Shown here piece by piece: positions 283 to 56,206 of a stretch of DNA of 64,000 nt (the first letter of the stretch is position 1; every line of letters starts with the position of its first letter). The translations under genes and the position numbers were made by a program. The DNA is from Methylococcales bacterium (GTDB lineage: Bacteria > Pseudomonadota > Gammaproteobacteria > Methylococcales > Methylomonadaceae), in contig JAPLRS010000007.1 of the NCBI GenBank assembly GCA_026399015.1, forward strand, positions 1-64,000, written 5' to 3'. Under the pieces are notes generated by a model. That model worked only from the letters and a program-made list of their open reading frames with translations, made no database searches and had not been told where the DNA came from.

Positions 283-639
283 TTATGCTGCCTCGGTTTA
301 ATTAAACAAATTAACTAATAGCATTACAGCTATTCCCAAATGATAACTTTCAATTGCTCATGAATTTAAAGTTAATTAACATTTAGACATACTTTAGCAT
401 AGATAAATGAACACTCAACCCCTAAGGAAAACTAAAAAAAGAAACCACATAAATATGTAGGCACATCAATAAACAACATTAATTTATTGAATTAAATATA
501 ATTTTTATATTTTTGTATATTTATATTAAAATTATCACCTCAAATAAAAATGTATATTGTCAAATTTAATATAGTTAACATAAACAAATTACTTTATATA
601 AAAATAATAAATAAATTACACAGATAAACTATTCAAAAT
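283..639. other. AT-rich intergenic region with one palindromic site
   Basis: This 357-base gap lies between the start of the Asp-rich gene (leftward) and the end of proA (also leftward). It is very AT-rich. The only structured element I see is the palindrome at 445-460. No hairpin with a T-run after proA is evident and no convincing ORF is present. Confidence 0.6.
445..460. promoter_or_regulatory. Recurring 16-bp palindromic site, copy A
   Basis: CCACATAAATATGTAG, an imperfect dyad. It is the exact reverse complement of the copy at 48913-48928, far away in the window. It lies upstream of the Asp-rich repeat gene that starts at 282. Unlike three other copies, no -10-like hexamer is seen 24 bases after it. 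Binding factor unknown. Confidence 0.6.
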
Positions 640-1896
640 TTATTGACCTCTCAAATGTCCATCACCATAAGCAACCCATTTATAAGAAGTTAACTCATTG
701 GGCCCCACTGGGCCACGCACATGTAACTTATCCGTACTGATACCAACAACGGAACCCAAACCGTAATCACCACCGCCCGACAATCTTGTTGAAGCATTAA
801 TCATGACGGATGCTGAATCCACTTGCGCTTCAAATTTTTGGGCCTTAGCTAAACTTTGGGTCACGATGGCATCTGTATGCCCAGAGCCATAATGATTTAT
901 GTGGTTGATTGCAGACGCGAGATCATCAACAACTTTAACTGACAGAATTGGCGCTAGATACTCAGTGTGCCAATCATCTTCTGCGGCCAGAGTTATTGTA
1001 GGTAAAATTTTTATGGATTGCTCACAACCACGTAATTCAATGTTTTTAGTTGTAAATGCACTATAAAGTTTGGGTAATAGTTGTTCTGCTATACATTTAT
1101 CAATCAACAAGGTTTCTAAAGCATTGCAGACCTGAACGCTTTGACATTTTGAGTCAATAGCGATATCAATAGCTTGATTAGGCTCAGCATCATCAGCAAT
1201 ATAAAGATGACATACCCCATCGTAATGCTTAATAACTGGAATGCGAGTTCCTTGAGCAATGCGTTTAATCAAATCTTTGCCGCCTCGAGGAATTAACACA
1301 TCAATGTATTCATCCATTTTAAGTAACTCACCTACTGCTTCATGGCCTGGTGTACGGATGATTTGTATGACATGCTCAGGTAAGCCAGCATTAACAGCCC
1401 CTGCTATCATGGCTTCGGTTAACAAGGTATTGGTTTGTAAAGCTTCTGATCCCCCACGCAAAATGACAGCATTACCACTTTTTATACAAACACCTGCTGC
1501 ATCGGTTGTTACATTAGGACGAGATTCATAAATAATACCAATTACACCTAAAGGCACAGATTTTTTATAAACTCTTAATCCCGCTGGATTCGTGTGTCCT
1601 TCTAATATACGATGTAAAGGATCTGGTAATTGAGCCACTTTTTTTAAACGTGACAGCATATATTCAAATGTCTTATCATCTATGGTTAAGCGTTTGATCA
1701 TGGCTGCCGATTGCCCTTCATCACGCGCTTTTGCAATTTCTTGCGCGTTAACAACTAATATTTGTTGTCTAACAGATTCTAATACATCTGCCATTTTTGC
1801 TAAGGCTAGATTTCTAAGATCGGCTGGTGTTGATGCAAGTTGACGGGATGCTAAACGACTTTGTTTTGCTAGAGTTAGTACACTATGATCATTCAT
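640..1896 (-). CDS. proA: Gamma-glutamyl phosphate reductase
   Basis: ProA reduces gamma-glutamyl phosphate to glutamate 5-semialdehyde with NADPH, the second step of proline synthesis, in the cytoplasm. The 418-aa protein has the usual family length and an aldehyde-dehydrogenase fold signature. The block CQSVQVCNALETLLID carries the catalytic cysteine, and ILRGGSEALQTN and GLGSVVGISTDKLHVRGP are family-typical. It is the last gene of a leftward run and starts 17 bases after the stop of fba. No good Shine-Dalgarno sequence precedes the ATG, so translation may depend on coupling to fba. The kinase partner proB is not in the window. Confidence 0.96.
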   Translation of the reverse strand: MNDHSVLTLAKQSRLASRQLASTPADLRNLALAKMADVLESVRQQILVVNAQEIAKARDEGQSAAMIKRLTIDDKTFEYMLSRLKKVAQLPDPLHRILEGHTNPAGLRVYKKSVPLGVIGIIYESRPNVTTDAAGVCIKSGNAVILRGGSEALQTNTLLTEAMIAGAVNAGLPEHVIQIIRTPGHEAVGELLKMDEYIDVLIPRGGKDLIKRIAQGTRIPVIKHYDGVCHLYIADDAEPNQAIDIAIDSKCQSVQVCNALETLLIDKCIAEQLLPKLYSAFTTKNIELRGCEQSIKILPTITLAAEDDWHTEYLAPILSVKVVDDLASAINHINHYGSGHTDAIVTQSLAKAQKFEAQVDSASVMINASTRLSGGGDYGLGSVVGISTDKLHVRGPVGPNELTSYKWVAYGDGHLRGQ

Positions 1897-1913
1897 GATT
1901 TTAACTGATTAGT

Positions 1914-2930
1914 TTATTGATAACGCTTAACCATCAAACTTAATGGAACCGCTTTAATCTTACTCGCATGACCAGCAGAGCCAAACGCTTGATAACGCTC
2001 TGTACATAGTTGCTGCATGGCATCACGGGCGGCTTTATAAATCTTTCGCGCATCAAGTTCGGCAACATTGTTTGGGTTACTGGTAAATTGTCTTATCGCT
2101 CCAGTAGATGCCATACGTAAATCCGTATCAATATTAACTTTACGAACCCCGTATTTAATACCCTCAACAATCTCGCTTACCGGCACCCCATAAGTTTGAG
2201 GAATTGTGCCGCCGTTAGCATTAATTACCTTTAACCAATCTTGCGGTATAGAACTAGACCCATGCATCACAAAATGCATATTCGGTAAGCGTTCTTGTAA
2301 CATTTTTAAGCGATTAATCACTAATACCTCACCCGTAGGTGGTTTACTGAACTTGTAAGCGCCATGACTAGTCCCTATTGCAACAGCCAAGGCATCAATC
2401 TGTGTATGTTTGACAAACTCTAAGGCTTCATCAGGATCAGTCAGTAATTGCCTGTGATCAAGTGTTGAACTTTGGGTCGATTCTAAAGACCCTAAGCAGC
2501 CAATTTCACCTTCTACTGACACACCACAGGCGTGCGCCATTTTTACTACAGCACTAGTCACTTCTACGTTATATTCAAAACTAGCTGGAGTTTTCATATC
2601 TGCTAATAGGGAACCATCCATCATCACAGAACTAAAACCCGACTGAATAGCTTGAGCGCAGATATCAGGTGTAGGGCCATGATCTCTGTGCATAACAACT
2701 GGAATATGTGGATATTGTTCTATGGCGGCCAATATTAAATGTCGTAAAAATATTTCACCTGCATAATTATTAGCTCCCGCAGAACCTTGCATAATAACGG
2801 GACTATCACAGGCATCTGCGGCTTGCATTATGGCTTGAACATGTTCCATGTTACTGATATTAAATGCGGGGACAGCAAAATTATGTTCAGCTGCATAATC
2901 TAAAATTTGTCTCAGTGAGACTAACGCCAT
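1914..2930 (-). CDS. fba: Class II fructose-bisphosphate aldolase, Calvin-cycle subtype
   Basis: A zinc-dependent aldolase that interconverts fructose 1,6-bisphosphate with dihydroxyacetone phosphate and glyceraldehyde 3-phosphate. The 338-aa protein begins MALVSLRQILDYAAEHNFAVPAFN, and VVMHRDHGPT holds a zinc-ligand histidine. KVNIDTDLRMASTGAIR is a substrate phosphate region. The overall pattern, including MHFVMHGSSSIPQDWL, fits the long Calvin-cycle subtype found in autotrophs, methylotrophs and many gammaproteobacteria, where it can also act on sedoheptulose bisphosphate. A strong AAGGAG site precedes the ATG and the gene follows tsaB by 11 bases. The pathway role (glycolysis, Calvin or ribulose monophosphate cycle) cannot be settled from this gene alone. 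Confidence 0.93.
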   Translation of the reverse strand: MALVSLRQILDYAAEHNFAVPAFNISNMEHVQAIMQAADACDSPVIMQGSAGANNYAGEIFLRHLILAAIEQYPHIPVVMHRDHGPTPDICAQAIQSGFSSVMMDGSLLADMKTPASFEYNVEVTSAVVKMAHACGVSVEGEIGCLGSLESTQSSTLDHRQLLTDPDEALEFVKHTQIDALAVAIGTSHGAYKFSKPPTGEVLVINRLKMLQERLPNMHFVMHGSSSIPQDWLKVINANGGTIPQTYGVPVSEIVEGIKYGVRKVNIDTDLRMASTGAIRQFTSNPNNVAELDARKIYKAARDAMQQLCTERYQAFGSAGHASKIKAVPLSLMVKRYQ

Positions 2931-2941
2931 TAGTGATCTCC

Positions 2942-3643
2942 TTAATTTTTTTGCTTACGCTCAGCTTCTGTTTGAGCAACTTTGTCGCGTAAATAAACCG
3001 GCATAGCTAGTTCAACAGGTACAGCTAGACCCTTATTAAAATCTCTTAAACCTAAGCGCACTATCGCAGAGGCTCTAGGGTAATGCTCAACATCATAAGA
3101 CAAGACCCTACTTCCCAGACGATAACTTAATTCTAAAGCGTAAACACCCCAGCCAGAGCCCACTCCCACGCCTTTAACATCTGGGAAATCAACATCAGAA
3201 GCTAAAGTTACCGCTTCTCTGCCGATTAATTGCGCCAATCCAGCCTCATCCTTTTTATAAACTCCCCAAAATATTTCTCCTATACGCGCATCTATTGCTG
3301 TAAAAGCGATATTTTCTGTCGGTTTAGATTGATCAAAGTAATTCTGTGCAACAGCAGCAAGCGTAGAAACTGGAACCACGGGTAAATCCGCTCCAAATGC
3401 TATACCCTGAATCACTCCAGTCGCAATACGAACTCCCGTAAATGATCCAGGGCCACAACTAAAGGCTAAGGCATCTAATTGTTGTGGACGAAGATCCGCA
3501 TCTGCCATTAAAGAATCAATCATAGGCAAAATAAGTTTCGTATGTTCTTTCGGCGTTAATTCAAAACGCTCAGTCACAACACCATCTATTAATAAAGCGG
3601 CTGAGCAAGCATCTGTTGATGTTTCAACAGCTAAAAGTTTCAT
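2942..3643 (-). CDS. tsaB: tRNA N6-threonylcarbamoyladenosine synthesis protein TsaB
   Basis: TsaB is the scaffold partner of TsaD and TsaE, which place threonylcarbamoyl on A37 of ANN-decoding tRNAs. The 233-aa protein begins MKLLAVETSTDACSAALLIDG, the ASKHA-fold phosphate-1 loop. EHTKLILPMIDSLM and ALAFSCGPGSFTGVRIATGV are hallmark TsaB blocks. Its ATG overlaps the TGA of the upstream helicase gene (ATGA at 3640-3643), so the two are translationally coupled. The pairing of tsaB with a YoaA/DinG-type helicase is a common gammaproteobacterial arrangement. Confidence 0.95.
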   Translation of the reverse strand: MKLLAVETSTDACSAALLIDGVVTERFELTPKEHTKLILPMIDSLMADADLRPQQLDALAFSCGPGSFTGVRIATGVIQGIAFGADLPVVPVSTLAAVAQNYFDQSKPTENIAFTAIDARIGEIFWGVYKKDEAGLAQLIGREAVTLASDVDFPDVKGVGVGSGWGVYALELSYRLGSRVLSYDVEHYPRASAIVRLGLRDFNKGLAVPVELAMPVYLRDKVAQTEAERKQKN

Positions 3644-5559: not shown

Positions 5560-5648
5560 TTAGTAATACCGGATAGAGTGGTTGTGACTAGAGGCTAACT
5601 AATCTGGGTTAATGATATTTATAATCAAAAACCCAGAATAATTAATGA

Positions 5649-31258: not shown

Positions 31259-31714
31259 GTCTGAAAGCTCCAATCTATTGATCACAATTAATAAACATTA
31301 AGTTTTTTAACATTTTTTAGTAAGATACCACAAAATCAATAGAATGCAAACTAATGTAATTAAATTTTTTTAACATCCATTAAAATAGTTAATTTAGTTT
31401 TCTAAATCATTGCTGAAACCAGACAGTTTAAATCAATATTTTAAAAAAAATTTTAACTATAATAAATACAATAAAAATATTAAAAAGTAATTTTTAACAA
31501 TTAGTTATATAAATTAAATACCGCACACCTATGTGGATTTTAATTTTAATAATTTTTTATTTTGACTTAGAATAAATTTGATGTTATCGTTTTTTACAAA
31601 TGTTAAGTCTTTTAACATTTTATTGAGCAAATACTCGATATAAGAGAAGATTAATGTAAAAAATTTACGATTAAATATTTATTAAATAATTTTAGGAATA
31701 ACGAGGATATTAAA
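31259..31714. other. AT-rich divergent promoter region
   Basis: This gap of about 456 bases separates the leftward unknown/MauG pair from the rightward Asp-rich gene, so it must contain two promoters. It holds one degenerate copy of the recurring palindrome (31521-31536). I see no ORF and no clear terminator in it. Confidence 0.6.
31521..31536. promoter_or_regulatory. Recurring palindromic site, degenerate copy B
   Basis: CCGCACACCTATGTGG matches copy A at 11 of 16 positions; the TATGTGG half is intact. It lies 179 bases upstream of the Asp-rich gene, similar to copies A and C relative to their genes. It could equally serve the leftward unit. Confidence 0.4.
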
Positions 31715-33091
31715 ATGAAACACCCACAATTATTATCATTGACAACAGCGGTAGCTCTCTTAGCTACACCTGTTTTACTACCCCAAAATATTTCTTGGTT
31801 GCAAAATGTTAGTAGCGTTGCGTTAGCTGCTAGTAATAATGTTGACCTAGATGACGATAACGATACTATACCGAATGCTGTCGATACTGATGATGATAAC
31901 GATGGCATCAAAAACGATAAAGATTTCGATGATGATAATGACGGCAAAAAAGATTCGGTAGATTTTGATGATGATAATGACGGTATTGTTGATAAATTAG
32001 ATCGTCGTGATGATGATGCTGACAATGATGGCAAAAATGATGTTGTAGACCTTGATGATGATAATGACGGAATCCCAGACTTAACTGATCCTGATGATGA
32101 CAATGATGGGATTATTGATACCAAAGATATCAATGACACTGACAATGATAATGACGGCATACTAAACGCTAAAGACTCTGATTTAGACAACGATAAAATC
32201 CCAAATAATAAAGATTTAGACGATGATAACGATGGCCTATCAGATGTAACAGAAAGTTTATCTGGCTATGATGATGACAGCGATGGTATTCAAAATTCTA
32301 TCGATGACGATGACGATAACGATGGAATTAAAGATGTCTCTGATAAAGATGATGATAATGATGGAATCATAGATTCTTTAGATACAGATGACGACAACGA
32401 CGGCATATCTGACGCGAAAGATACTGATGATGACAATGACACAATATTAGACAAGGACGATGTAAATGGTAGTGATAAGGACAACGATGGCCTAGTTGAT
32501 AGCGTTGACTCTGACGATGATAATGATAAGAGTCTTGACGCAGATGATACTGACGATGATAACGATGGTACGCCTGATGATAGCGATCTAAAGTCATTAG
32601 ATAAAGACCACGACGGTATTACTAACAGTATAGACATTGATGATGATAATGATGGTATCGATGATAGTTTGGATAGTGACGATGATAATGACGGAACCTT
32701 GGATGCTAATGATCAAGATGATGACAATGATAAAATCATAGATACCCTCGATAATGATGACGATAATGACTCAGTTACAGATAAGTTAGATCATAATACT
32801 TGCTTCGACATCGATAACGACGGCATTATTGATGGTGAAGATGAGGACTCAGACAACGATGGCATTGTTGACAGTAAAGATACAGATTCTGACAATGACA
32901 CCATTGATGACGGCAATGATCATGACTCCGATAATGACGGTGTTGACGATAATGATGATGACGATGAAGGTAATAACGGTATCACAGATGGATTAGATGA
33001 CGATACTACTGAATGTGAGGATCACCAACATCAAAATAGAGGTGAAACAGAGCAAAGTGGCAATGGTAATCATGGTCACAATAACAACTAA
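31715..33091 (+). CDS. Exported Asp-rich calcium-repeat (thrombospondin type 3) protein
   Basis: A 458-aa protein made almost wholly of DxDxDGxxD-type repeats after a signal peptide (cleavage probably after VALAA). The unit is about 12-13 residues, for example DDDNDGIKD, which in thrombospondin type 3 repeats wraps calcium ions. About 150 residues are Asp, so the protein is extremely acidic. The last 35 residues change to His/Gly/Asn (DHQHQNRGETEQ, NGNHGHNNN), a possible transition-metal site. GAGG precedes the ATG and a strong terminator follows, so it is a single-gene transcript. A cell-surface, sheath or matrix role is inferred. Its paralogue begins at 282. Confidence 0.88.
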   Translation: MKHPQLLSLTTAVALLATPVLLPQNISWLQNVSSVALAASNNVDLDDDNDTIPNAVDTDDDNDGIKNDKDFDDDNDGKKDSVDFDDDNDGIVDKLDRRDDDADNDGKNDVVDLDDDNDGIPDLTDPDDDNDGIIDTKDINDTDNDNDGILNAKDSDLDNDKIPNNKDLDDDNDGLSDVTESLSGYDDDSDGIQNSIDDDDDNDGIKDVSDKDDDNDGIIDSLDTDDDNDGISDAKDTDDDNDTILDKDDVNGSDKDNDGLVDSVDSDDDNDKSLDADDTDDDNDGTPDDSDLKSLDKDHDGITNSIDIDDDNDGIDDSLDSDDDNDGTLDANDQDDDNDKIIDTLDNDDDNDSVTDKLDHNTCFDIDNDGIIDGEDEDSDNDGIVDSKDTDSDNDTIDDGNDHDSDNDGVDDNDDDDEGNNGITDGLDDDTTECEDHQHQNRGETEQSGNGNHGHNNN

Positions 33092-44620: not shown

Positions 44621-45715
44621 CTACAACAAACCGTTTTCGACTGCTTTTACAGGCGCAGCAGGGACAACTTCTTGAACTGGTTCGGCAGGTGTAGATTCTA
44701 TAGCATGGTCATGACCTGCATGATTGTGTCCAGCATGGTCAGCAGATTCACCAGCAGTTTCTCCATAAGTCGCATCACTATCTTCCATATACTTAATGAT
44801 TTCTTCCACGTCCTTATCGCTAAACTTAAAGCTAGGCATGATCACTTCGTTATATTTCTTAAACAAACTCATGACGATAGGATCCTTTTCAGCTAACATC
44901 ACCTCTGGCGTTTTAAGCCACTTTCTTAACCAAGCCGGATCACGCACTTTAGTCACATTTAACAAACCAGGCCCAATGTTATCTTCGGCACCTAAACTGT
45001 GACAGCCATCACAACGCGAATGAAACAACTCTTCGCCTTTGGGAATTTTGCGTATTTTCCCAGCATCCGCATAATTTACAGTGTCAGCTGTTTTACCCTC
45101 TTGATACGCCTTAAAAGTACTTAAGGTTCTACCAATAAGCCAAGCTAAAACTCTAGGTTCATCATAAGGCGATCTTTTTACCCACTGTCCCGTATGCTCA
45201 TTACCCATCATAATACTGGTACTGTGTTCGCTTAGATTTTTTTCTTCGTAACCTTCTCTAAACAAACCAAAAGTGCGTCTTAATTGAATGGTTTCCTCTT
45301 TTGTAGCCGTTAAAAATTTCCACCCTGAATCAGGCGTAATTTTAAATTTAGCCGCATACGCTTTTAAAACTTCAGGAGTATCATGGTCAGGATCAATACT
45401 AATTGAGTAAAAGAAAATATCTTTACCCATACGACTACCTAATAATTTTTGTACTTTACGTAAATTAGCTGTTTCTGATGGGCAACTATCACCGCAATGC
45501 GTAAAGATAAAATTAATAATAACAATTTTATCTTTTAATAAATCCTCATAAAACTTAAGCTTTTGTCCATCCTGATCAACCAAGGTAATATTAGGAAAAT
45601 ATTCTGGCCCCCATGGTGAGCCTTTAGGAGCCGCCAAACTGTTACTGGCCATCCCTCCTAACAATACACTCAATGCTAAAAACTTTAAAAGCATTGTCAC
45701 AGAAAATCTTTTCAT
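44621..45715 (-). CDS. SCO1/SenC-type copper chaperone fused to cytochrome c
   Basis: A 364-aa exported protein. The N-terminal thioredoxin-like SCO domain has the copper ligands C74, C78 (THCGDSCP) and H164 (SEHSTSIMM). After it comes a cytochrome c domain with CDGCH (235-239) and a probable axial Met in IMPSFKFSDKDV. The C-terminus is His-rich (HAGHNHAGHDHA). I use the ATG at 45715 (MKRFSVTMLL, signal peptide); an earlier TTG would start inside a terminator hairpin. It lies downstream of the 911-aa multicopper oxidase and may load its copper or shuttle electrons. Confidence 0.88.
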   Translation of the reverse strand: MKRFSVTMLLKFLALSVLLGGMASNSLAAPKGSPWGPEYFPNITLVDQDGQKLKFYEDLLKDKIVIINFIFTHCGDSCPSETANLRKVQKLLGSRMGKDIFFYSISIDPDHDTPEVLKAYAAKFKITPDSGWKFLTATKEETIQLRRTFGLFREGYEEKNLSEHSTSIMMGNEHTGQWVKRSPYDEPRVLAWLIGRTLSTFKAYQEGKTADTVNYADAGKIRKIPKGEELFHSRCDGCHSLGAEDNIGPGLLNVTKVRDPAWLRKWLKTPEVMLAEKDPIVMSLFKKYNEVIMPSFKFSDKDVEEIIKYMEDSDATYGETAGESADHAGHNHAGHDHAIESTPAEPVQEVVPAAPVKAVENGLL

Positions 45716-45740
45716 AATATGGCCTGCTATTTGTTTAAAA

Positions 45741-45771
45741 AAAACCGGTAACACCCAAAAATGTTACCGGT
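45741..45771 (-). terminator. Rho-independent terminator after the 911-aa oxidase
   Basis: ACCGGTAACA and TGTTACCGGT form a 10-bp stem with an 8-base loop; on the minus strand it is followed by eight T residues (plus-strand A-run at 45737-45744). It separates the oxidase from the SCO/cytochrome gene, whose own start is at 45715. Confidence 0.9.
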
Positions 45772-45992: not shown

Positions 45993-45996
45993 GACC

Positions 45997-48732
45997 TTAC
46001 TTCGGTAATGTAGCAGGGATTGTAAAGCCTTTTGCTGCTGTTAAATCACCTGTTTTAGCCGTGGGTAAGTAGATACTTGGTTCATATTGTACACCGTTCC
46101 AGTCTGGCATCGGCGTTGGTACTGCCAAGGTTTGGCCTGGGTGTTCAAGATCCCATCTTAATAACATCGCATGATCTTCATGTTGCGTGTTATGGCAATG
46201 TTCAACATAAGTTCCCGCGAAGTCTCTAAAGCGTATCGCAATATCCACTGATGTTGTTGTATCGGCTAAAGGACCTACACGATACAAGTCTTTACGCGCA
46301 TACTTTTCCCAAGCTGGAGGCGCTACACCACCACGATACAATATTTGACCTTCTTCAAAGTGGGCGTGTACTGGATGTGTCCAACCACCGGCACCTTTGA
46401 TATGCCAGATTTCAAGCGCACCTTGTTCTGGCGCTGCCGAAATGCGATGCTCATCAGCAGTTAGTCCGGCGCCCCCATCGGTTTTAATTGTCCAAGGCGC
46501 TAAATCAGTTCCACCACCTGAACGACCAAAGTCAAACGTTCTATGTACGGCTTTAGCAAGATCAGTTTGCGTAGGTCTGTTTAACGGAATCATCACTTTA
46601 CCAGGATTAACAATGGTTTGAGTTGTTGTTGTGACCTTTTTAGTTTTAGAATTAACAGTTGTCACTGTTTGAGTTGTCGTTACTGATTCTTCGTATTCAG
46701 CAGGATTCATACTGTAATCCACTTGTGCTGGGTTGTAGTTTGCCAACTTAGCGTTAGGTTGATAAGGTTTTGTCATATCAACAGGGGCTGGATCTGTTAC
46801 TTTAAATTCTAAAAACTTACCAATCGCAGGGTCACCATTAATACCATCCGCTTTATAAGCTGCTTTACTTGCAACGCCATCAACTTTAGCCGGAGCCAAC
46901 ACATCCGCTAACGGAATATACTTACTTGGACCCATGCCATTTTGATGTTCTGCTAAGTTCACCATATACAATTTAGTACCTTTCGCTAAGCCCGCAAAGT
47001 CGACGATAATATCGTAACGCTCACCAATACCTTGTTCTGGTAAGGCATCAGGTGATTGCGCATTAGGAAATCTAACGGTATGTTCCATTAAGTTTCCGTC
47101 GTTAGCGATCATGTGGAATGGGATTTTAGTGTAGCTTTTAACGCCTTTAGCATCTGTTGTTTCTTTAACAATCGCAATCTTAAAGTCACGCGACACTGCA
47201 CCGTCTAACATTCTAAAACGGTAACGACGTGGACGGACATCAAAGGTGGGTTTGTATTGCCAGTTAACTAACACTCTGTCACCTAAGAAACCATCTAAGT
47301 TAAAGATGTTAAATTTTAATTGCCCGGTTTTATCCCAGGCTTTATCAGCAATCAATAAGTTAACGTCATAATCACGGTTACCCCAATCTAAACCCGTACC
47401 ACTCGGCAAACATAAGTTAACGTTTGCAGGGTCTGCGTAATGACACGCATAACCTGGGTTAATGGGGTAACTTTGTGTTTTTATACTCTTTGATGTATGC
47501 GCTAAGGGTTCAATGGCTGTATTACCAATACCCGTTTTAGCTTCATTTAGATCCACTGGCTCTCTACCACGATCTAAGGCACTGTAGTAGTTCATCGCTG
47601 CCGCATTTCCTTTGTAAACGTTTTGCGCAGTGTAATCTAACATGTGATCATGAAACCAGTGAGTACTCATGGTTTCACGCCAATCACCTGCTACCGGTGT
47701 AATACCACCGTGACCATCGGGCGCGCCTGCTCTAGGATCTATAGCGCCAGTATTGATAGAATCATGACCTGCTAACACCATTGGCCAATGATAATCATAA
47801 AATTGACCAGGATAGAAATAAGCATGAGCAAAACCATCACTTTCTGCTGGGTTATGGCCATTATGCTCATGCGTACTAATGGTATGACGCGCAAAGCCAT
47901 TATTAGCGGCTTCATCAATTGGTAGACCGTTGTAATGCCTAAAGATTAAAGGCTCGCCATAACGTGCCATTAAGATTTTGGGGGGTAAAGTTCCGTCAAA
48001 AGTCCACACTGAGTTTTTATCTTGCGTCGGTAAATTAGGATGGATTTTAATAACAGCACCCTCAGTACCCGGTTTTCCATCACCGTTCACATCAATATAG
48101 TACAAACCATTAGGACCAAACTCACCGGTTTTATATCCGTGTAACTGGACTTTATCACGTAAACCACCGTTGACACGGGCACCGGTTTGTACGGTTTGGA
48201 AAAAGCGTTTGTAAGGAAATTCATCCCAGCGTTGGTGAGCAAACTCTTCACCGCCTGGACGTCCTTCGGCAGGTGTATTTGTTTGTGCACCCAAACACTC
48301 GTTAACTTTAGCTTGCCAAGGACTCGTAATCGATTCATCAACTTTACGTAAAGGCACTGAGTTCATTTTTTCAGATAAAAATGCATCTAAAGCTGCACCA
48401 TCAGGGCCAGATGTACAATCCGTTGGCGCAGGATAGCTTCTTGTGCCATCAATACTTGAGATACCCACGGATTTGCTGGTATCTTCAAAGGTACCAAATT
48501 CTTCAAAAGTAAACATCTTGGCAGTAAATTCCGTCGCACAAGCCCCGTTAATACACAATGGACTAGGTTCTGGTTTTGAAATATTCGTAACAGGATCAAC
48601 CTGTGCCGTTGGAATATTAAAACCTGCATAGGCAACAGATCCACTTAACAACCCTATTGCTATCGCTAATGCCGAAACGGGCTTTCTGCTAGCAACAAAA
48701 GTTGTGCTGTCTTGCTCTTTTTTAGTAGTCAT
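45997..48732 (-). CDS. Exported multicopper oxidase, 911 aa
   Basis: A three-domain-type multicopper oxidase, longer than laccase/CotA (about 500 aa) because of insertions. A signal peptide ends near residue 36. Copper motifs: HEHNGH (288-293), HWFHDH (358-363), HPVHAH (786-791) and HCHNTQHEDHAMLL (from 845), which complete type 1 and type 2/3 sites. Two insertions stand out: a calcium-loop-like YIDVNGDGKPGTE near 212-224, and a Thr/Val/Lys-rich low-complexity linker (SVTTTQTVTTVNSKTK) near 690. AAGGTG precedes the ATG. Large oxidases of this kind include metal (Mn, Fe, Cu) and phenol oxidases, so substrate is open. A palindromic site and a fitting promoter lie upstream. Confidence 0.9.
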   Translation of the reverse strand: MTTKKEQDSTTFVASRKPVSALAIAIGLLSGSVAYAGFNIPTAQVDPVTNISKPEPSPLCINGACATEFTAKMFTFEEFGTFEDTSKSVGISSIDGTRSYPAPTDCTSGPDGAALDAFLSEKMNSVPLRKVDESITSPWQAKVNECLGAQTNTPAEGRPGGEEFAHQRWDEFPYKRFFQTVQTGARVNGGLRDKVQLHGYKTGEFGPNGLYYIDVNGDGKPGTEGAVIKIHPNLPTQDKNSVWTFDGTLPPKILMARYGEPLIFRHYNGLPIDEAANNGFARHTISTHEHNGHNPAESDGFAHAYFYPGQFYDYHWPMVLAGHDSINTGAIDPRAGAPDGHGGITPVAGDWRETMSTHWFHDHMLDYTAQNVYKGNAAAMNYYSALDRGREPVDLNEAKTGIGNTAIEPLAHTSKSIKTQSYPINPGYACHYADPANVNLCLPSGTGLDWGNRDYDVNLLIADKAWDKTGQLKFNIFNLDGFLGDRVLVNWQYKPTFDVRPRRYRFRMLDGAVSRDFKIAIVKETTDAKGVKSYTKIPFHMIANDGNLMEHTVRFPNAQSPDALPEQGIGERYDIIVDFAGLAKGTKLYMVNLAEHQNGMGPSKYIPLADVLAPAKVDGVASKAAYKADGINGDPAIGKFLEFKVTDPAPVDMTKPYQPNAKLANYNPAQVDYSMNPAEYEESVTTTQTVTTVNSKTKKVTTTTQTIVNPGKVMIPLNRPTQTDLAKAVHRTFDFGRSGGGTDLAPWTIKTDGGAGLTADEHRISAAPEQGALEIWHIKGAGGWTHPVHAHFEEGQILYRGGVAPPAWEKYARKDLYRVGPLADTTTSVDIAIRFRDFAGTYVEHCHNTQHEDHAMLLRWDLEHPGQTLAVPTPMPDWNGVQYEPSIYLPTAKTGDLTAAKGFTIPATLPK

Positions 48733-48883: not shown

Positions 48884-48912
48884 ATTCTACTGACCTGCCC
48901 CATGGGGCAAAA
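48884..48912 (-). promoter_or_regulatory. Predicted promoter of the 911-aa oxidase gene
   Basis: On the minus strand a -10-like TAGAAT (48889-48884) begins 24 bases after palindrome C. The -35 position directly abuts the palindrome and reads TTTTGC, a poor match, as expected for an activator-dependent promoter. Between them lies a perfect 14-bp palindrome, TGCCCCATGGGGCA (48896-48909), a possible second operator. Confidence 0.5.
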
Positions 48913-49270: not shown

Positions 49271-49291
49271 CTTCCTGAGCGAAGTCGAAAG
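49271..49291. repeat. Fragment of a palindromic repeat
   Basis: The stretch contains TTCCTGAGC and GAAGTCGAAAG, similar to the right arm of the element at 45968-45992 (CCTGAGC...GTCGAAG). It lies in the decayed intergenic region, on the downstream side of the oxidase remnant. Confidence 0.45.
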
Positions 49292-49434
49292 ATATTACTC
49301 GTCGAATATTTAATACCCTTAGCCCTACTACCCCAACCCTGATCTGACAGTTACCTATTTATATAGGATGCTGCCCTAGGCGCATCAATGTATAACCTTA
49401 AGGTGTTTCAATAAATCGGGGTTTACTAATATGC

Positions 49435-49521
49435 CTAGGTAAAAAACCCTATGGCAATTGCCAAGGCCGATACAGGCTTTCTTTGTAAAAGTCGATTGGC
49501 TCTCATTTTTTTATTAACCAT
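49435..49521 (-). pseudogene. 5' remnant of a third multicopper oxidase gene
   Basis: A 28-codon frame ending in TAG. Its residues 14-25, RKPVSALAIAIG, are identical to residues 16-27 of the 911-aa oxidase, and the start context GGAAGGTGTGAGATG matches that gene's AAGGTGTGTCATG. The preceding KK is also shared. The remaining gene is lost. The palindrome at 49686-49701 stands 165 bases upstream, as copy C stands before the intact oxidase, so the duplication included the promoter. The fragment keeps most of a signal peptide but nothing else. Confidence 0.8.
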
Positions 49522-49685
49522 CTCACACCTTCCTATTAAAATTAAAATATAAATTTACAAATAAATACTAAAAAACATTTAACACATAAAATCTGGCCTA
49601 ATCCTAAAAAACAAAAAAGCAGATTAATTAATATACTTCTGGGTTGACAGCCTCTTTGCTTAGGCGATTTTTTAAGCTTTTAAAA

Positions 49686-49701
49686 CGCTATATTTATGTG
49701 G
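49686..49701. promoter_or_regulatory. Recurring palindromic site, copy D (upstream of the remnant)
   Basis: CGCTATATTTATGTGG matches copy C at 13 of 16 positions; one half-site is eroded. At the expected 24-base offset on the minus strand the sequence is TAAGCA, a decayed -10. Both fit a promoter no longer under selection. Confidence 0.55.
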
Positions 49702-49805
49702 TTTTACTAAAAAATAAACCAAAAAAATTTAGCCACTTCTTAAATCCATAAATTACATTATTGCTCCTATGGGTATAGTTTAGTGACTTCCAAGTCCTTG
49801 TATAA

Positions 49806-49821
49806 CCGCATATTTATGTAG
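49806..49821. promoter_or_regulatory. Recurring palindromic site, copy E
   Basis: CCGCATATTTATGTAG matches copy C at 13 of 16 positions. It is 268 bases upstream of the 677-aa oxidase. The hexamer at the 24-base offset (TTACTT) is a poor -10, and a better promoter lies nearer the gene. Confidence 0.5.
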
Positions 49822-49997
49822 TTTTTTGTAATAAATTTTATTTTTTACTTACTTTATATTGCACTAAAATTACACCGGAGCGACACTTAATAACCTTTCA
49901 GATTGCACACTTAATTTAAATAATTGTTATTATTTATAATTTTGCTTAAAGCAAATATGAGGTGGTAAAAAGACAAATAAATATTTTAACTTTTTTC

Positions 49998-50025
49998 TTG
50001 ACGTGCAACTCTCAACTGTTACACT
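49998..50025 (+). promoter_or_regulatory. Sigma-70-like promoter of the 677-aa oxidase gene
   Basis: TTGACG (49998-50003) and TACACT (50020-50025) are separated by 16 bases. The predicted transcript would have a leader of about 57 bases before the ATG at 50089. It is independent of palindrome E, which is about 180 bases upstream. Confidence 0.45.
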
Positions 50026-50088
50026 ATTCCGCAATGTAAATGTTAAACAATTTATTAAATTTAAAGCTTTTACCCATGAGGCCTGCTT

Positions 50089-52122
50089 ATGTTGAAGAAA
50101 ACCCGAAGTTTATTTAGCCACTCCAAGCACGAAACTGATGTTGCTAAGTACATTAAAGAAGTGCGTGATCTAGAAGCGGCCGGTGTAACACGCAGAGAAC
50201 TTTTTAAAATGGGCTTAAAAGCCAGTGCCACAGGCTTAGTAACCGTAACCGGCGCCAGCTTAATTCCAGGTCTTGCGCAAGCAAAAAATGGCGGTGCAGT
50301 TGCCATAAACGGTGTCACCGGAGGTGGCAACAGGCCATTAATCATCAGTCCGCCTTGTACCAAACCTTGGTCAGAACCTTTAGTGATTCCTAAAGTCTGT
50401 CAGCCCGTTAGCCAATTTACCGGTTTACCCTCAGGTGAATACCCTAATGACCCTAGCTTAAGCATTGAAAAATTTCATTCTGGCTGTGGCCTAGGCGGGG
50501 ATTGGGAAAAATATACGGACGCAAGACGCGAGCCTCACCAAAGATGGAACGAACTCAATGGAGAAAGTTCAATTAAATACGAATTAGAGTGTCTTGAAAT
50601 TGATTGGAACTTTTATTTTTCTGAAGAATATCCCACTTTTAATTCAAAAGTCTGGACTTATAAAGACATGACCCCCAATGTCAATGGCGATTTCGCTTGT
50701 GGCCCTGCCCGCATTAAAGCCTATTACGGTCAGCCCGTACTCATGCGTATGTTTAACAGCTTGCCCATGCAAGGTCGTGATAACCAAGGTTTTGGTATTA
50801 ACCAAATATCGCCGCATTTACATAATGCGCATAACCCACCTGAATCAGATGGTGGGCCTAATCGATTTTTTGATTCAGCCAAGTTTTACGATTATTGGTA
50901 TCCCAATATTCGCGCTGGGTTTTCAAGTACGCATAAAAAATCTACCCGCTATGATGCCAGCACCAAACAATATTATGATTGCGCCGGTGATTGGAAAGAA
51001 ACCCAAAGCTCTTTATGGTTTCATGACCACCGTATGGATTTTACCTCTCAAAATGTTTATAAAGGCATGGCCTCGTTCTATTCCTTATATAGTAATGATA
51101 TAAATTTAGATACCGACGACGAAACCACCGGCTTACGTTTACCCAGTGGCGAATACGATGTGCCTGTGGTCATTGGTGATAAAACCTTTGATCAAGATGG
51201 CCAAATGTTTATGGATTTATTCAATAGCGGTGGCTTTAAAGGCGACATGACCACGGTTAACTTTAAAATTAAGCCTTTTTTTGAGGTTAAGCGCCGTAAA
51301 TATCGTGTTAGATTCTTAAATGGTGGCCCCTCTACCTTCTTAGAGCTTTCGCTTAAAAATGCGAATTTAAACTCTAAGGTACCCACATTAATGACCCGTA
51401 TTGCGAATGACGGCAATTTATTACCCAAAGCACAAATAGTGCCTAGCATACGCTTAGGTGTGGCAGAACGCGCAGATGTAATTATTGACTTTAGCCAGTA
51501 TAAAGATGGCGATATTGTGTATTTAGAAAATAGACTGCAATCTTTGTATCCATCGCAAGGCACCACAGGTCGAATTTTACCCCCCAGTCGTGATACTGAA
51601 ATATTAATGTTTAAAATCGTGGGTCCAGCGGTAACCGATGATTACAGTGCGCCAATGAAGACGCTGCAAACACAAGAAATGGTGCCCTTACCTATACAAC
51701 CTAAGCCAACGGTAAAACGTAGCTTTAGTTTTGGTACCAGTAACGGCGCGTGGAATGTGAATGGTAAATTGTATAGCCCGTTAGTCATGTCGGCTTATCC
51801 GGCCGAAGGTTCTTGTGAAGAATGGACCTTTACCTCAGGTGGGGGGTGGTCACATCCGGTGCATATACATCATGAAGAAAGCCTTTTAATAAAGCGTAAT
51901 GGCAATGCTCCAGCCTTAGATGACTTATCTAGAAAAGATGTCTATCGAGTTGGAGAAGGCTCAGAAGGTACGGCCGGCACGTCTAGCTTAACTTTTAGAA
52001 TGCAATTTAGAGATTGGGTTGGGGATTATCCCTGCCATTGTCATAACGTGGTGCACGAAGATCACGGGATGATGTTTAGATTTAAAATTGTGCCACCTAC
52101 CGACCCCAAAGCTGGCAAATAA
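50089..52122 (+). CDS. Exported multicopper oxidase, 677 aa, Tat signal
   Basis: The N-terminus has TRRELFKMG (twin Arg at 35-36) followed by a hydrophobic stretch ending in GLAQA, a probable Tat signal, which suits a protein folded with copper in the cytoplasm. Copper motifs are HLHNAH (243-248), WFHDH (310-314), HPVHIH (589-594) and HCHNVVHEDHGMM (from 650), giving complete type 1, 2 and 3 sites. It is related to the divergent 911-aa oxidase (both have HNPxESDG, FYDYxxP and QNVYKG) but the two use different export routes. GAGG lies before the ATG. It ends at a strong terminator. Substrate unknown. Confidence 0.9.
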   Translation: MLKKTRSLFSHSKHETDVAKYIKEVRDLEAAGVTRRELFKMGLKASATGLVTVTGASLIPGLAQAKNGGAVAINGVTGGGNRPLIISPPCTKPWSEPLVIPKVCQPVSQFTGLPSGEYPNDPSLSIEKFHSGCGLGGDWEKYTDARREPHQRWNELNGESSIKYELECLEIDWNFYFSEEYPTFNSKVWTYKDMTPNVNGDFACGPARIKAYYGQPVLMRMFNSLPMQGRDNQGFGINQISPHLHNAHNPPESDGGPNRFFDSAKFYDYWYPNIRAGFSSTHKKSTRYDASTKQYYDCAGDWKETQSSLWFHDHRMDFTSQNVYKGMASFYSLYSNDINLDTDDETTGLRLPSGEYDVPVVIGDKTFDQDGQMFMDLFNSGGFKGDMTTVNFKIKPFFEVKRRKYRVRFLNGGPSTFLELSLKNANLNSKVPTLMTRIANDGNLLPKAQIVPSIRLGVAERADVIIDFSQYKDGDIVYLENRLQSLYPSQGTTGRILPPSRDTEILMFKIVGPAVTDDYSAPMKTLQTQEMVPLPIQPKPTVKRSFSFGTSNGAWNVNGKLYSPLVMSAYPAEGSCEEWTFTSGGGWSHPVHIHHEESLLIKRNGNAPALDDLSRKDVYRVGEGSEGTAGTSSLTFRMQFRDWVGDYPCHCHNVVHEDHGMMFRFKIVPPTDPKAGK

Positions 52123-52164
52123 ACTAGTGACTTCCTAGTTTATTTTTAAGCAAGTTTGACCAAA

Positions 52165-52205
52165 AGCCAGAGTTTTGCATCACAAAGCAACACTCTGGCT
52201 TTTTT
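52165..52205 (+). terminator. Rho-independent terminator after the 677-aa oxidase
   Basis: AGCCAGAGTTTTGC and GCAACACTCTGGCT form a 14-bp stem with one mismatch and an 8-base loop, followed by TTTTT. Confidence 0.93.
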
Positions 52206-52266
52206 GTTAAAATATATTTTTATATATAACTTAAGTTAATAATTTTAATCTAATAATTTATAAAAA

Positions 52267-52282
52267 CTACATAAACATGTAG
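52267..52282. promoter_or_regulatory. Recurring palindromic site, copy F
   Basis: CTACATAAACATGTAG, the most symmetric copy at its ends. It is 92 bases before the start of the 219-aa SCO gene. A -10-like TAAAAT starts exactly 24 bases after it. Confidence 0.7.
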
Positions 52283-52311
52283 TTACCATAAATACCCTGT
52301 TTCTCTAAAAT
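52283..52311 (+). promoter_or_regulatory. Predicted promoter of the 219-aa SCO gene
   Basis: TTACCA (52283-52288), directly after palindrome F, and TAAAAT (52306-52311) with 17 bases between. The weak -35 next to the site fits class II activation. Confidence 0.5.
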
Positions 52312-52373
52312 AGAGCCATACGAATGAGTCAATCATTCCACGTGTAGCGACTAACTTTTTTGGGGAATTTACG

Positions 52374-53033
52374 ATGCATAAACGCAATTTTATTAAAACA
52401 CTGTTGGGCGGTTTTATTGGATTAACAGCTACCACTAAAGGGATGCCAGCACTGGCTTTAGTTAATCAGGCTCCGGCTAAAAAAAGCCTGCAAGATCTGA
52501 TTGCCACCCGTCGTAGAAATAAGTTTCTAAATTTGCCACTATTAACACATGAAGGTAAATTAGTGCGTTTGTATGACGATTTATTAAAAGATAAAATCGT
52601 TTTAATGAACTTTACCTATGTAGACTGCCAAGGTATTTGTCCTGGTATGACCGAAAACCTAAAAAAAGTTTATAACGAATTTGGTGATCGTATGGGTAAA
52701 GATGTATTTATGTATTCATTTTCATTGGTACAAGACAGTCCAGAAAAACTTAAGCATTACCGTGAAATGCACCACATTAAAGATGGCTGGACTTTTTTAA
52801 CCGGCACTAAAGCCGACATGGAAGCCATCAGAGTTCATTTAGGTTTTAATTCTAACGATCCAAAAATTGATCAAGACCGCTCACAACATACTGGCGTCGT
52901 TAAATTTGGTATTGAAAACTTAGAAAGATGGGGCATGACCCCTGCCCTAGGCGAAGCTAAATTTATTGCCGAATATGTAAGATGGATGGAACCAAACGGT
53001 CCGCGTCCAGATCCTGTAGCCCTTGCGGCTTGA
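52374..53033 (+). CDS. SCO1/SenC family copper chaperone
   Basis: A 219-aa exported protein with only a SCO thioredoxin-like domain. Ligands are C85 and C89 (DCQGICPG) and H172 (SQHTG). The N-terminus MHKRNFIKTLLGGFIGLTA is a single-Arg-pair-lacking, Tat-like or Sec leader. LYDDLLKDKIVLMNF matches the SCO/cytochrome protein at 44621 (FYEDLLKDKIVIINF), so the two are paralogues. SCO proteins deliver copper to cuproenzymes; here the two nearby oxidases are the obvious candidates. GGGGA precedes the ATG. The stop codon lies inside the first unit of a 20-bp repeat array. Confidence 0.9.
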   Translation: MHKRNFIKTLLGGFIGLTATTKGMPALALVNQAPAKKSLQDLIATRRRNKFLNLPLLTHEGKLVRLYDDLLKDKIVLMNFTYVDCQGICPGMTENLKKVYNEFGDRMGKDVFMYSFSLVQDSPEKLKHYREMHHIKDGWTFLTGTKADMEAIRVHLGFNSNDPKIDQDRSQHTGVVKFGIENLERWGMTPALGEAKFIAEYVRWMEPNGPRPDPVALAA

Positions 53034-53380
53034 ATAAATGTTCTTTAATCTGAAAGGGCGTTCTTTCGCTTGAATAAATGCCCTTTCGTCTGAAAGGGCG
53101 TTCTTTGGCTTGAATAAATGTTCTTTCGTCTGAAAGGACGTTCTTTCGCTTGAATAAACGTCCGTATGCCTAAACGGACATACTTTCGTCTGAACGGACA
53201 TTCTTTGACTTGAATAAACGTCCGTTTATCCAAACTGACCTGCGTTACAGCAAACGGAGCTTTAAACACGGCGATAAACATTCTTTCGCTTGAACTGACC
53301 TTCTTTCGCCTGAACTTACGTTCTTTCACCTGTCCGGACTTCCTTTTGCCAAAACGGAGCTACTTTGGCGCCAGCCAAGC
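53021..53380. repeat. 20-bp degenerate tandem repeat, about eighteen units
   Basis: In register from 53021, successive 20-base units read like TTCTTTCGCTTGAATAAATG, alternating with units such as TTCTTTCGTCTGAAAGGACG. Later units diverge (CCGTATGCC, CCGTTTATCC cores). The first unit contains the last codons and the stop of the SCO gene. Several neighbouring units are inverted copies of each other (CCCTTTC and GAAAGGG), so the transcript could fold into a chain of hairpins. No stop codons fall in two minus-strand frames over part of it, which is a by-product of the repeat. Confidence 0.9.
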
Positions 53381-53516
53381 AAGCGCCCCTCCTCATCTGC
53401 AACTTCATTAATAATAGTCCTTAAGTTAACTTGTTATTTTATAAAATAAAATAATATAATGCCATTAACTTGAAATCAAGAAAGACTAAATTCTCACACA
53501 TTGCCATTATCCCAAA
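53381..53516. other. Promoter region of the histidine kinase gene
   Basis: The part of the 53034-53516 gap after the repeats. It is AT-rich, with TATTTTATAAAATAAAATA at 53436-53454 as the only notable stretch. No palindrome of the recurring type is seen here. Confidence 0.4.
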
Positions 53517-54926
53517 ATGACTAAATTCGACCCCATATTTGACGTCTGCTCAGTTTGTACAGAACACCAATTATTGCAACTTATCTTTGATGCCACTGAC
53601 GCTGCCATTTTTAGATTAGACAACTATGGGCGCATTACCTTAGTTAATCAACGCATGATAGACATGTTTAAAATTACCCGAGAACAGCTTATCGGGCATT
53701 TTTACGATGATATTTTAGGCACTAATAATAAAGACGATAACTTTACTCAGTTAAAACCCTTAATCGACAAAACCATTAACTCAATTAATTTTCAAAGAGT
53801 TTATGTTAGATCTGACGACAGTCAATTTAACGGACAATTTAGAGCCCGAGGCATGTTTGATAAAAATAACCAACCCGAAGGCGTGGTGGTTATTATTAGT
53901 GACATAACCGAACAAAAAACGGTTGAAAATGAATTACTACACTGCCGGACTCGCTTTAGCGTAATGACAGACAACCTGCCCTGTGGCTTATATGACTTAG
54001 CGCAATACCCCGATGGTCGAAGTGAATATAGCTACTTAAGCAGCAGAGCCGAAGAAATATATGAGCTGACCTTTGCAGAACTACAAGCGGATATGTCATT
54101 ATTTTGGAATATGGTATTTCCTGAGGACTTGCATCAACTGCTAAACCTAAATAAAGAGTGCAACAAAAAGGGCAATTTATTTGAAGCGAAGTTCCGTATC
54201 AAAACCCGCTCTGGTAAAATCAAGTGGATTAAAACATCTTCATCACCCAATCCACACCTAGCCGGCGAACATGTCATTTGGAGTGGCTATATCATAGATA
54301 TAACCCGCCAAAAAAGTATGGAACAAGATTTGTTAGAACTCGAAATTGCGCACCGCGTATCGTTAGAACATGAACGCATTATGGAAGATTTGCATGACGG
54401 CTTTGGCTCGCAACTCTCAAGCGCAGGTTTATTAGCCCAAAGAGGCGAACTAACTAATGCACAAATGGCCACGCTGTTACAAGAATGTATGGAAGATTTA
54501 CATATTGTGGTAGATACCTTTAGTAACCAAGAACGCAACCTACACACATCTCTGGTTAATTTTAGACACCGCTTACAACAACGTAATAACCATAATACCA
54601 CGCAATTTAATTGGGATTTTCAGCTGGATCAGATACCCGCCATGGATTCTAGAACTATTTTGCATGTATTGCGTATTATTCAAGAAGTGATTAATAACGC
54701 CTTAAAGCACGCACAAGCTAAACAAATTAATATTAGCGCCACTTATGCTAACGACACTTTAGTTGTGACTATCTCAGATAATGGTATTGGCATGCCAGAG
54801 GAATTTAGAGCGGGACGCGGTTTAAAAAATATCAACAAACGCGCCCATGAAATTGGTGGCTATTTACATTTTGAACGCAAAACCCCGGGCACCGAGGTTA
54901 GCCTTATAGTAGTGATTAACCGATAA
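53517..54926 (+). CDS. Soluble PAS-PAS sensor histidine kinase, NarX/DegS type
   Basis: A 469-aa kinase without membrane segments, so it senses in the cytoplasm. Two PAS domains occupy about residues 15-135 and 145-265. The dimerisation domain of the HisKA_3 class has the phospho-acceptor H293 in EDLHDGFGSQL. The ATPase domain holds EVINNALKHAQA (N box), ISDNGIGMPEE (G1) and GRGLKNINKRAHEIGG (G2). The N-terminal CSVC at 11-14 could bind metal or sense redox. It is convergent with a NarL-type regulator gene whose stop is two bases away; they are the likely pair. Confidence 0.92.
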   Translation: MTKFDPIFDVCSVCTEHQLLQLIFDATDAAIFRLDNYGRITLVNQRMIDMFKITREQLIGHFYDDILGTNNKDDNFTQLKPLIDKTINSINFQRVYVRSDDSQFNGQFRARGMFDKNNQPEGVVVIISDITEQKTVENELLHCRTRFSVMTDNLPCGLYDLAQYPDGRSEYSYLSSRAEEIYELTFAELQADMSLFWNMVFPEDLHQLLNLNKECNKKGNLFEAKFRIKTRSGKIKWIKTSSSPNPHLAGEHVIWSGYIIDITRQKSMEQDLLELEIAHRVSLEHERIMEDLHDGFGSQLSSAGLLAQRGELTNAQMATLLQECMEDLHIVVDTFSNQERNLHTSLVNFRHRLQQRNNHNTTQFNWDFQLDQIPAMDSRTILHVLRIIQEVINNALKHAQAKQINISATYANDTLVVTISDNGIGMPEEFRAGRGLKNINKRAHEIGGYLHFERKTPGTEVSLIVVINR

Positions 54927-54927
54927 T

Positions 54928-55680
54928 TTATTCAGCATCCATCAGCATACCTATACCAGTTCCAACGCCACTCATACTTAACCCCATGCCATTCTCGTTG
55001 TCAAACAAACCAATGCTATTGGCTTTGGCAACGGCTTGCGCTTGCGAATGCACTTCTAGCTTTTTGTATAAGTTACGGATATGAAATTGTACTGTTGATA
55101 ATTTAATATCTAAAGTATCTGCCACCTGGCCATATGTATTACCTAAGGATAATAATCTTAATAAACTGGTTTCTTTTGGCGTTAATTCAGGAAACGATTG
55201 CGTCATAGAAAACTTAGGTGAACCGGCTAATCTAAATAAATATTGCGCCAATTGTGGGCTAATCGGGTAACTGCCTTCTAACACCGACATAATGCCATGA
55301 CTAATTGATAAAGACGTATCGTTTTTAATCACGTAGCCATTGGCGCCTAAGCGAATTGCGTCTAACAAGTTTCTTTCAGAGGTTAACACCGACACCACCA
55401 TAATAGGGACATCTGGATATGCTTTTTTAGCACAGCGAATCACTTCGTTACCATGCATATCGGGTAAGCCTAAATCAACCAACACCAAATCTAACTTTCT
55501 ATTCGACTTATTAATAAGCTCTTGCGCTTCTGCGCCGGTTTGCACCACATCAATCGACCAATGTAGCCCCATGATTTGGACAGCTTCTTTTAATTGTTGC
55601 GCAAAGGTTGGATCGTCTTCCACTAATAAGCAGCGTTTTGGGCAACCGATACAATTAGACATTGCAGACATAGCATTCAC
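54928..55680 (-). CDS. NarL/FixJ-family response regulator
   Basis: A 250-aa regulator with a receiver domain (acidic pair EDD at 21-23, phospho-acceptor D69 in LVDLGLPD) and a LuxR-type helix-turn-helix (LTPKETSLLRLLSLGNTYGQVA ... STVQFHIRNLYKKLEVHSQAQAV blocks). An unusual N-terminal extension carries CIGCPKRC just before the receiver, a possible metal site. The C-terminal tail (MGLSMSGVGTGIGMLM) is Gly/Met-rich. Tail-to-tail with the kinase gene. As the only transcription factor in the oxidase region it is a candidate for binding the recurring palindrome. Confidence 0.92.
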   Translation of the reverse strand: MNAMSAMSNCIGCPKRCLLVEDDPTFAQQLKEAVQIMGLHWSIDVVQTGAEAQELINKSNRKLDLVLVDLGLPDMHGNEVIRCAKKAYPDVPIMVVSVLTSERNLLDAIRLGANGYVIKNDTSLSISHGIMSVLEGSYPISPQLAQYLFRLAGSPKFSMTQSFPELTPKETSLLRLLSLGNTYGQVADTLDIKLSTVQFHIRNLYKKLEVHSQAQAVAKANSIGLFDNENGMGLSMSGVGTGIGMLMDAE

Positions 55681-56206
55681 CGTTTAGATATTAATTCGTT
55701 AATATTAAAAAATACTTTTTTACTTTTCTTTAAATAAAGTATCTTAACTTTATTGCTGGGCAAAGAATATCAACACCTACCAAACTTGTCTAGTGTTTTT
55801 TTAATAAATCCATAAAGAAATGTTTAACATTTTATTTAATTGAAATTTATGAATATAAACGCATGATTTATAGATATAATTTTTCAATGTTACAAGACTT
55901 TTTATTTTTAATATTACAAAATAAAGTTAAAATACTTATGTATTTATAAATATTTATTAACCTTATTAAGGTATAAAGACCGCAAAATTCATCCACAATG
56001 CCCTTAGGGTTTAGACAATTTAAATTATTAAAGAAATTTTCTTACAAAACCCACATAAACATGTAGTTTCCACGTTAACTTACTTTGCATAAACTATAGC
56101 TACACAACTCAGATTTACATTCTGTGGGAATAAACTGAGTGATTAAGTTGTGGATAAAAGGATATTTACAATTTAAAACTGAATAAACCTTAACGAGGAT
56201 ATTTGT
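55681..56206. other. Divergent promoter region with palindrome G
   Basis: A 526-base AT-rich gap between the regulator gene (leftward) and the first large exported protein (rightward). The palindrome at 56051-56066 and its downstream -10-like hexamer are the only features I can support. No ORF is convincing. Confidence 0.6.
56051..56066. promoter_or_regulatory. Recurring palindromic site, copy G
   Basis: CCACATAAACATGTAG, differing from copy A at one position. It is 141 bases before the 763-aa exported protein. A -10-like TAAACT (56090-56095) starts exactly 24 bases after it, and TTTCCA abuts it at the -35 position with a 17-base spacer. Confidence 0.7.

Follow-up and report, generated by a model that had tools for sequence, protein, structure and literature searches.

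A predicted exported-protein regulon with palindromic operator sites and a candidate NarL-type activator in a Methylococcales MAG

Introduction

Does the 16-bp palindrome that recurs near oxidase, SCO and surface-protein genes in the window, the stretch of 64,000 nucleotides analysed here, act as an operator, and which regulator and which genes would belong to it? The window represents C44:1-64000 of the genome G000, a MAG of 2.70 Mb in 47 contigs with a completeness of 86%. The nearest genome with a syntenic locus is G009, a MAG of the same genus, in which the locus is located on contig C99 (L069; 14,444 bases). A contig scan for relatives bearing the window regulator returned two useful loci, L069 and L070 (handle G258; from its contig number and position, its genome was taken to be G262), and one distant locus. 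Relatives of this regulator occur in MAGs named uncultured Methylococcaceae, from which a methanotrophic host is inferred. A literature search, confined to open-licence papers and a few sets of terms, returned no account of the palindrome or of the regulon.

Features of the window are as follows, the operators and their promoter elements being predicted from the sequence.

1-282, minus strand: gene of a DDDND-repeat (TSP3-like) protein, running off the contig start (gene call)
445..460, minus strand: operator copy A, exact match, facing the DDDND-repeat gene; -35 TTGAGT at 413-418(-), -10 TAAAGT at 391-396(-)
31521..31536, plus strand: copy B, a weak operator that differs from CYACATNNNNATGTRG at 2 positions, ahead of the gene at 31715; -35 TTGACT at 31562-31567, -10 TATCGT at 31585-31590
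31715..33091, plus strand: DDDND-repeat protein, exported and placed in the predicted regulon; exact sites accompany its paralogues at C44:1-282(-) and C5:39310(+)
44621..45754, minus strand: SCO1/SenC + cytochrome c protein (Pfam; gene order as in related clusters)
45997..48732, minus strand: large multicopper oxidase, MCOL (Pfam Cu-oxidase_2; best PDB match bilirubin oxidase)
48884..48889, minus strand: -10-like TAGAAT, 23 nt from the operator, conserved in L069
48913..48928, minus strand: operator of the MCOL promoter, exact match, conserved at L069:13412
49435..49521, minus strand: remnant of a duplicated MCOL 5' end, 28-codon frame to the stop (blastn 70% over 141 columns; 30-residue N-terminal match)
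49686..49701, minus strand: decayed operator of the MCOL remnant, 3 mismatches, alignable over 26 nt with the region of the MCOL operator
49806..49821, minus strand: operator copy, 1 mismatch, with -10-like TAAACT at 49777-49782(-), spacing 23
50089..52122, plus strand: Tat-type multicopper oxidase (Pfam), with its own sigma-70-like promoter
52267..52282, plus strand: operator of the SCO promoter, exact match, identical at L069:10809; -10-like TAAAAT at 52306-52311
52374..53033, plus strand: SCO1/SenC protein (Pfam)
53517..54926, plus strand: PAS-PAS histidine kinase (Pfam), adjoining the regulator in L069 too
54928..55680, minus strand: NarL/LuxR-type response regulator (Response_reg + GerE; nearest solved HTH QscR), proposed as activator, also from its distribution
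56051..56066, plus strand: operator of the surface-protein operon, exact match, conserved at L069:7010; -10-like TAAACT at 56090-56095
56207..58498, plus strand: surface protein SURF1, Ig-like, exported, predicted first gene of the operon (Pfam Big_9); its paralogues have the exact sites C44:65115 and 68330
58589..61783, plus strand: surface protein SURF2, after a 90-bp gap from SURF1, without a site of its own
61900..62595, plus strand: small exported protein, a relative of which comes after SURF1 in L069

Occurrence and distribution of the palindrome

All seven copies listed by the sequence-only reading are present where it had placed them. Matches with up to 3 mismatches number 14 in the window (a palindrome may be counted on both strands), against 5.2 (sd 2.7) in shuffled sequences, none of 100 of which reached 14. 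The consensus is CYACAT-NNNN-ATGTRG, in most cases followed by TT.

Exact matches to CYACATNNNNATGTRG were counted in each genome against a reversed-pattern control, the genus being represented by G000, G009 and 33 other genomes. Genome G000 contains nine exact sites and no control matches; seven of the nine are located on C44, and five of the nine lie beyond the window (C44:65115, 68330 and 72436; C5:39131; C7:4325). In G009, five exact sites and one control match were found; four of the sites are on the single contig with the syntenic locus, three of them at orthologous promoters, and the site on G009:C74 falls within a coding frame. The other 33 genomes together have 18 exact sites against 30 control matches (Fisher P 2e-4 for the contrast with G000 and G009). 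Sites exceed the control in G121 (4 vs 0) and G245 (3 vs 0), though these genomes lack the regulator; two of these seven sites were inspected. Among the 13 of the 18 sites that were inspected, eight are in coding frames, one lies across a frame end, two are in terminator-like hairpins (GCCCTACAT..ATGTAGGGC) and two are intergenic (G245, G158); the other five belong to G121 (three) and G245 (two).

Random scatter or hits inside genes would have spoken against an operator; all nine exact sites of G000 are intergenic and upstream of a gene. The rule that copies lie between genes thus holds for these nine sites, but C44:72436 is terminator-like, and C7:4325, separated from its gene by about 540 bp, has neither of the promoter spacings described below. 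Site C44:72436 has hairpin arms of 14 bp (-20.2 kcal/mol) about 60 bp after a stop codon; it is probably a terminator and was dropped as an operator. Repeated CCTTCGACAGGCTCAGGACGAACGG-like elements are located beside the C7 site (L027:4370-4800). The palindrome as such is real and non-random, and it is very probably a regulatory operator.

Promoter layouts

Spacing was analysed for 13 exact gene-facing sites, namely, nine of G000 and four of the five of G009, leaving out G009:C74 and the weaker copies. The motif TANNNT is present exactly 23 nt past the 16-mer in nine of the 13, against four at the next-best offset and one when read away from the gene; its background frequency is 37/962 (3.8%). 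The binomial P of 1e-10 for nine of 13 assumes independence, which is untrue of paralogues and orthologues; G000 alone gives 5/9 (P 9e-6). The nine promoters are those of the large oxidase, SCO, SURF1, SURF3 and SURF4 in G000 and of the large oxidase, SCO, SURF1 and a second surface gene in G009. The spacing claimed earlier for 48913, 52267 and 56051 was confirmed, with 23 nt between the site and TAGAAT, TAAAAT and TAAACT, respectively. The dyad centre, which had been put at about -43, is computed near -43.5 from the predicted start, the -10 hexamer being taken as positions -12 to -7. A site near -42, a weak -35 and a -10 are combined in nine of the 13 exact sites, a sequence layout of class II activator-dependent promoters, from which activation is predicted.

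The four exceptions to the 23-nt spacing are C44:72436, C7:4325 and two DDDND-repeat promoters. In the latter two and in that of the weak copy 31521, a -10 hexamer (TAAAGT, TATAGT and TATCGT) is located 48 nt from the site and is accompanied by a -35 hexamer (TTGAGT, TTGAGT and TTGACT). The distance from the dyad to the -10 is 31 bp in the class II-like layout and 56 bp in the DDDND-repeat layout. Copies A (445) and B (31521) had been treated as exceptions, and they do lack a -10 at 23 nt, but they have a common second layout; because both, with the C5 paralogue, have the -10 at 48 nt and a real -35, they look like a second promoter class. Copy E (49806) proved to be no exception, as TAAACT is found at 23 nt when it is read on the minus strand. 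Copies 49686 and 49806 fit best on the minus strand, before the decayed duplicate of the large oxidase 5' end and not before the oxidase gene at 50089.

Two observations concern contig ends. Contigs C44 (window 1-282) and C5 (L026:10311-10592) break at the same residue inside similar DDDND-repeat genes, probably an assembly break at repeats. The identical near-site CAAGATAAATATGTAG is present at G000:C5:100-115 and G000:C21:100-115, the same position from the contig start, and points to a common repeat at contig ends.

Promoter alignments of G000 and G009 show conservation of the site above its surroundings: identity within the site is 16/16 for SCO, 15/16 for SURF1 and 15/16 for the large oxidase, against 69%, 76% and 65%, respectively, outside it. 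The -10 hexamer is kept at equal spacing in these promoters. Close to the oxidase gene at 50089, both genomes have a sigma-70-like promoter, as judged by eye, and the link of this gene to the operator in G000 is doubtful.

Predicted regulon

The predicted regulon is represented by the large oxidase, SCO, the series SURF1-SURF2-small protein-HAF-repeat protein, SURF3, SURF4 and the DDDND-repeat proteins. SURF2 and the small exported protein likely share the operon of SURF1, for which structure prediction gave a mean pLDDT of 36. The SCO-cytochrome protein possibly belongs to one operon with the large oxidase, from which it is separated by a 242-bp gap. An adhesin-like protein on C7 with DUF4347, cadherin and RTX domains is also possibly a member; neither spacing fits its site.

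The view that all copies precede genes of exported proteins was borne out insofar as a shared regulon of such proteins is supported, but copy 445 faces left, towards a gene that runs off the contig start. Genome-wide counts, conservation and fixed spacing likewise uphold an operator, a class II-like geometry and an exported-protein regulon. The further proposal of an extracellular copper oxidation system fares less well: the oxidases of the window are bilirubin-oxidase/CotA-like by homology, and copper oxidation as the purpose of the regulon is only a guess. The idea of a copper-specific repressor box was also weighed and rejected. For an exported copper-protein system, the analysis supplies an operator of defined sequence, a candidate for its regulator and a list of genes; the inducing signal could reveal the purpose of the system.

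Candidate regulator

Genes of the kinase and of the NarL-type regulator are located tail-to-tail in the locus of both G000 and G009. The regulator has the NarL/FixJ architecture, with domains PF00072 (1.4e-17) and PF00196 (8.6e-14). The motifs VEDD, VDLGLPD, VSV and IKND were read from its sequence; we take these to supply the acidic pair, Asp, Ser/Thr and Lys of the phospho-acceptor pocket. Its HTH is nearest to that of QscR (E 1.7e-9), followed by VraR, EsrB and NarL, among solved structures, and the LuxR-type pattern CT-N12-AG is complete in seven of the 13 exact sites. The kinase matches HisKA_3 below threshold (E 0.043) and contains the HDG motif; it is the likely partner of the regulator. 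Tandem repeats of 20/40 bp (CGTTCTTTCGCTTGAATAAA-like) are present between the SCO and kinase genes (window 53028-53332).

At E<=1e-40 the regulator was found in four of 237 family genomes (G000, G009, G262 and G246) and in two of 251 sampled genomes of the order, a sample without G009 and G262. The G262 regulator is 53% identical and has nearly the same recognition helix, yet this genome has no exact sites; its sites with one mismatch number nine against 20 control matches, and the five inspected of these nine are all inside coding frames. In G246, where the regulator is 46% identical, there are five one-mismatch sites against six controls, of which one site is followed after about 100 bp by an exported alginate-export-like gene but has no TANNNT at 23, and another is just before an integrase frame. 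The association of palindrome and regulator is confined to two genomes, both incomplete MAGs of one genus, and so may represent one evolutionary event.

In the promoters of G000 and G009, no conserved site was seen before the regulator or kinase gene except 56051, 371 bp off. Use of this site in reverse for the regulator gene was rejected: by eye, TAATTT is present at 23 nt in G000 and none was seen there in G009. A different NarL-type regulator, 32% identical, is encoded near SCO in G126 (L169:13501-14240). By distribution and geometry, the NarL-type regulator 54928-55680 is the best candidate for an activator binding the palindrome.

Proposed mechanism and alternative explanations

The preferred reading, to which we assign a probability of roughly 0.65, is that a dimeric activator binds the palindrome and controls the exported-protein regulon, this activator most likely being the NarL-type regulator in its phosphorylated form, with its PAS kinase. 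The kinase would drive the adjacent regulator by phosphorylation, and a regulator dimer would occupy CYACAT-NNNN-ATGTRG. At the promoters of the large oxidase, SCO and surface proteins the dimer, centred at about -43.5 beside a poor -35, would recruit sigma-70 polymerase, and at the three DDDND-repeat promoters its position would be about -68.5, with a recognisable -35 further downstream.

A genuine activator operator bound by another factor, such as a CRP/FNR-type or other LuxR-family protein, appears unlikely. The 5-4-5 palindrome TACAT-N4-ATGTA resembles the FNR layout, and retention of the recognition helix in G262 without exact sites would agree with such a factor. However, the NarL-type gene is inside the locus of both site-rich genomes and rare elsewhere; moreover, in the available excerpts of PMC9314961 a CRP class II site is 29 bp from the -10, against 31 bp here, and the two spacings found here are within 1 bp of the NarL distances of 32 and 55 bp. 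A repressor, blocking polymerase as a dimer over the -35 region, is distinctly improbable: in the nine class II-like promoters the site directly adjoins the -35 position, as a repressor site might, but the -35 hexamers of these promoters are poor, which suits activation; in the DDDND-repeat promoters the site is far enough upstream of the -35 to be less suitable for repression. Least probable are RNA hairpins, terminators or chance palindromes, a reading already largely refuted. Although C44:72436 resembles the two terminator-like sites of other genomes, the other 12 exact gene-facing sites form weak hairpins (arms of 4-8 bp, -1.3 to -7.4 kcal/mol), and fixed -10 spacing and conservation would be left unexplained; no Rfam match at gathering scores was found in L026, L027 and the window, and chance palindromes were ruled out by the counts together with the fixed spacing.

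Related gene clusters

Genes of the surface protein, small protein, HAF repeats, large oxidase, SCO, second oxidase, P782 and MauG-like protein are clustered in other genomes of the order. The upstream survey covered 45 loci, 44 of which have an upstream region (L160 has none); three of these belong to G000 and 41 to other genomes. These 41 rows precede related surface and oxidase genes in genomes that lack the regulator, and the palindrome was found in none of them; upstream sequence is short or missing in three rows, and one cluster contributes several. The sigma-54-type signature TGGCA[C/T]-N5-TTGC is present in ten rows, and 31 have neither this signature nor the palindrome. The neighbour ahead of the surface gene in G137 is a Sigma54_activat gene. 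A paralogous operon (oxidase-SCO-P782-MauG) on contig C39 of G000 itself (L162:4698-15975), the proteins of which are 56-67% identical to those of the window, lacks the palindrome; strict and near-strict patterns did not detect the sigma-54 signature there either.

This distribution suggests a regulatory handover. At slightly less than even odds, a NarL-type two-component system would have replaced, within one genus, sigma-54 and its enhancer-binding activator in the control of a conserved exported copper-protein cluster; its operator would then have arisen, with two fixed geometries, at some eight promoters and have captured new surface-protein families as well. If true, this may offer a clean example of closely related bacteria whose regulation has been rewired from one sigma factor to another.

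Comparison with known systems

Control by sigma-54 in the order concerns similar downstream genes, namely, those of the surface protein, oxidases and SCO, with TGGCA[C/T]-N5-TTGC promoters, in ten of the 41 rows, instead of the palindrome and the NarL-type regulator. Among regulators of methanotrophs, MxaB of Methylomicrobium is a NarL-type response regulator, tied to the control of methanol dehydrogenase. LuxR regulators of the QscR/LasR type, among which QscR has the closest solved HTH, have an acyl-homoserine-lactone domain, whereas the window regulator has a receiver domain. The sensor NarX differs in layout from the window kinase with its two PAS domains.

The window regulator is similar to NarL in its Response_reg and GerE domains, and the NarL model is its top NCBIfam match, but its score of 92.5 bits is below the cut-off of 250 for a NarL orthologue (NF007935). 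The NarL operator is a 7-2-7 heptamer pair in the available excerpts of PMC9314961, whereas the palindrome here has CYACAT half-sites in a 6-4-6 arrangement, the pairing of regulator and site being itself a proposed one. Excerpts of PMC6113619 give the LuxR-type motif as CT-N12-AG and place the QscR site at -54 to -29. According to the same excerpts of PMC9314961, ogt promoters of E. coli function with a single NarL site placed 65, 55 or 32 bp from the -10, the 32-bp promoter being active but poorly coupled to nitrate; the distances of 31 and 56 bp found here differ by 1 bp from two of these and the shorter one by 2 bp from that of CRP. Judged by its sequence features, the window system is very probably a real operator with its regulon, of the proposed NarL/LuxR-type activator kind.
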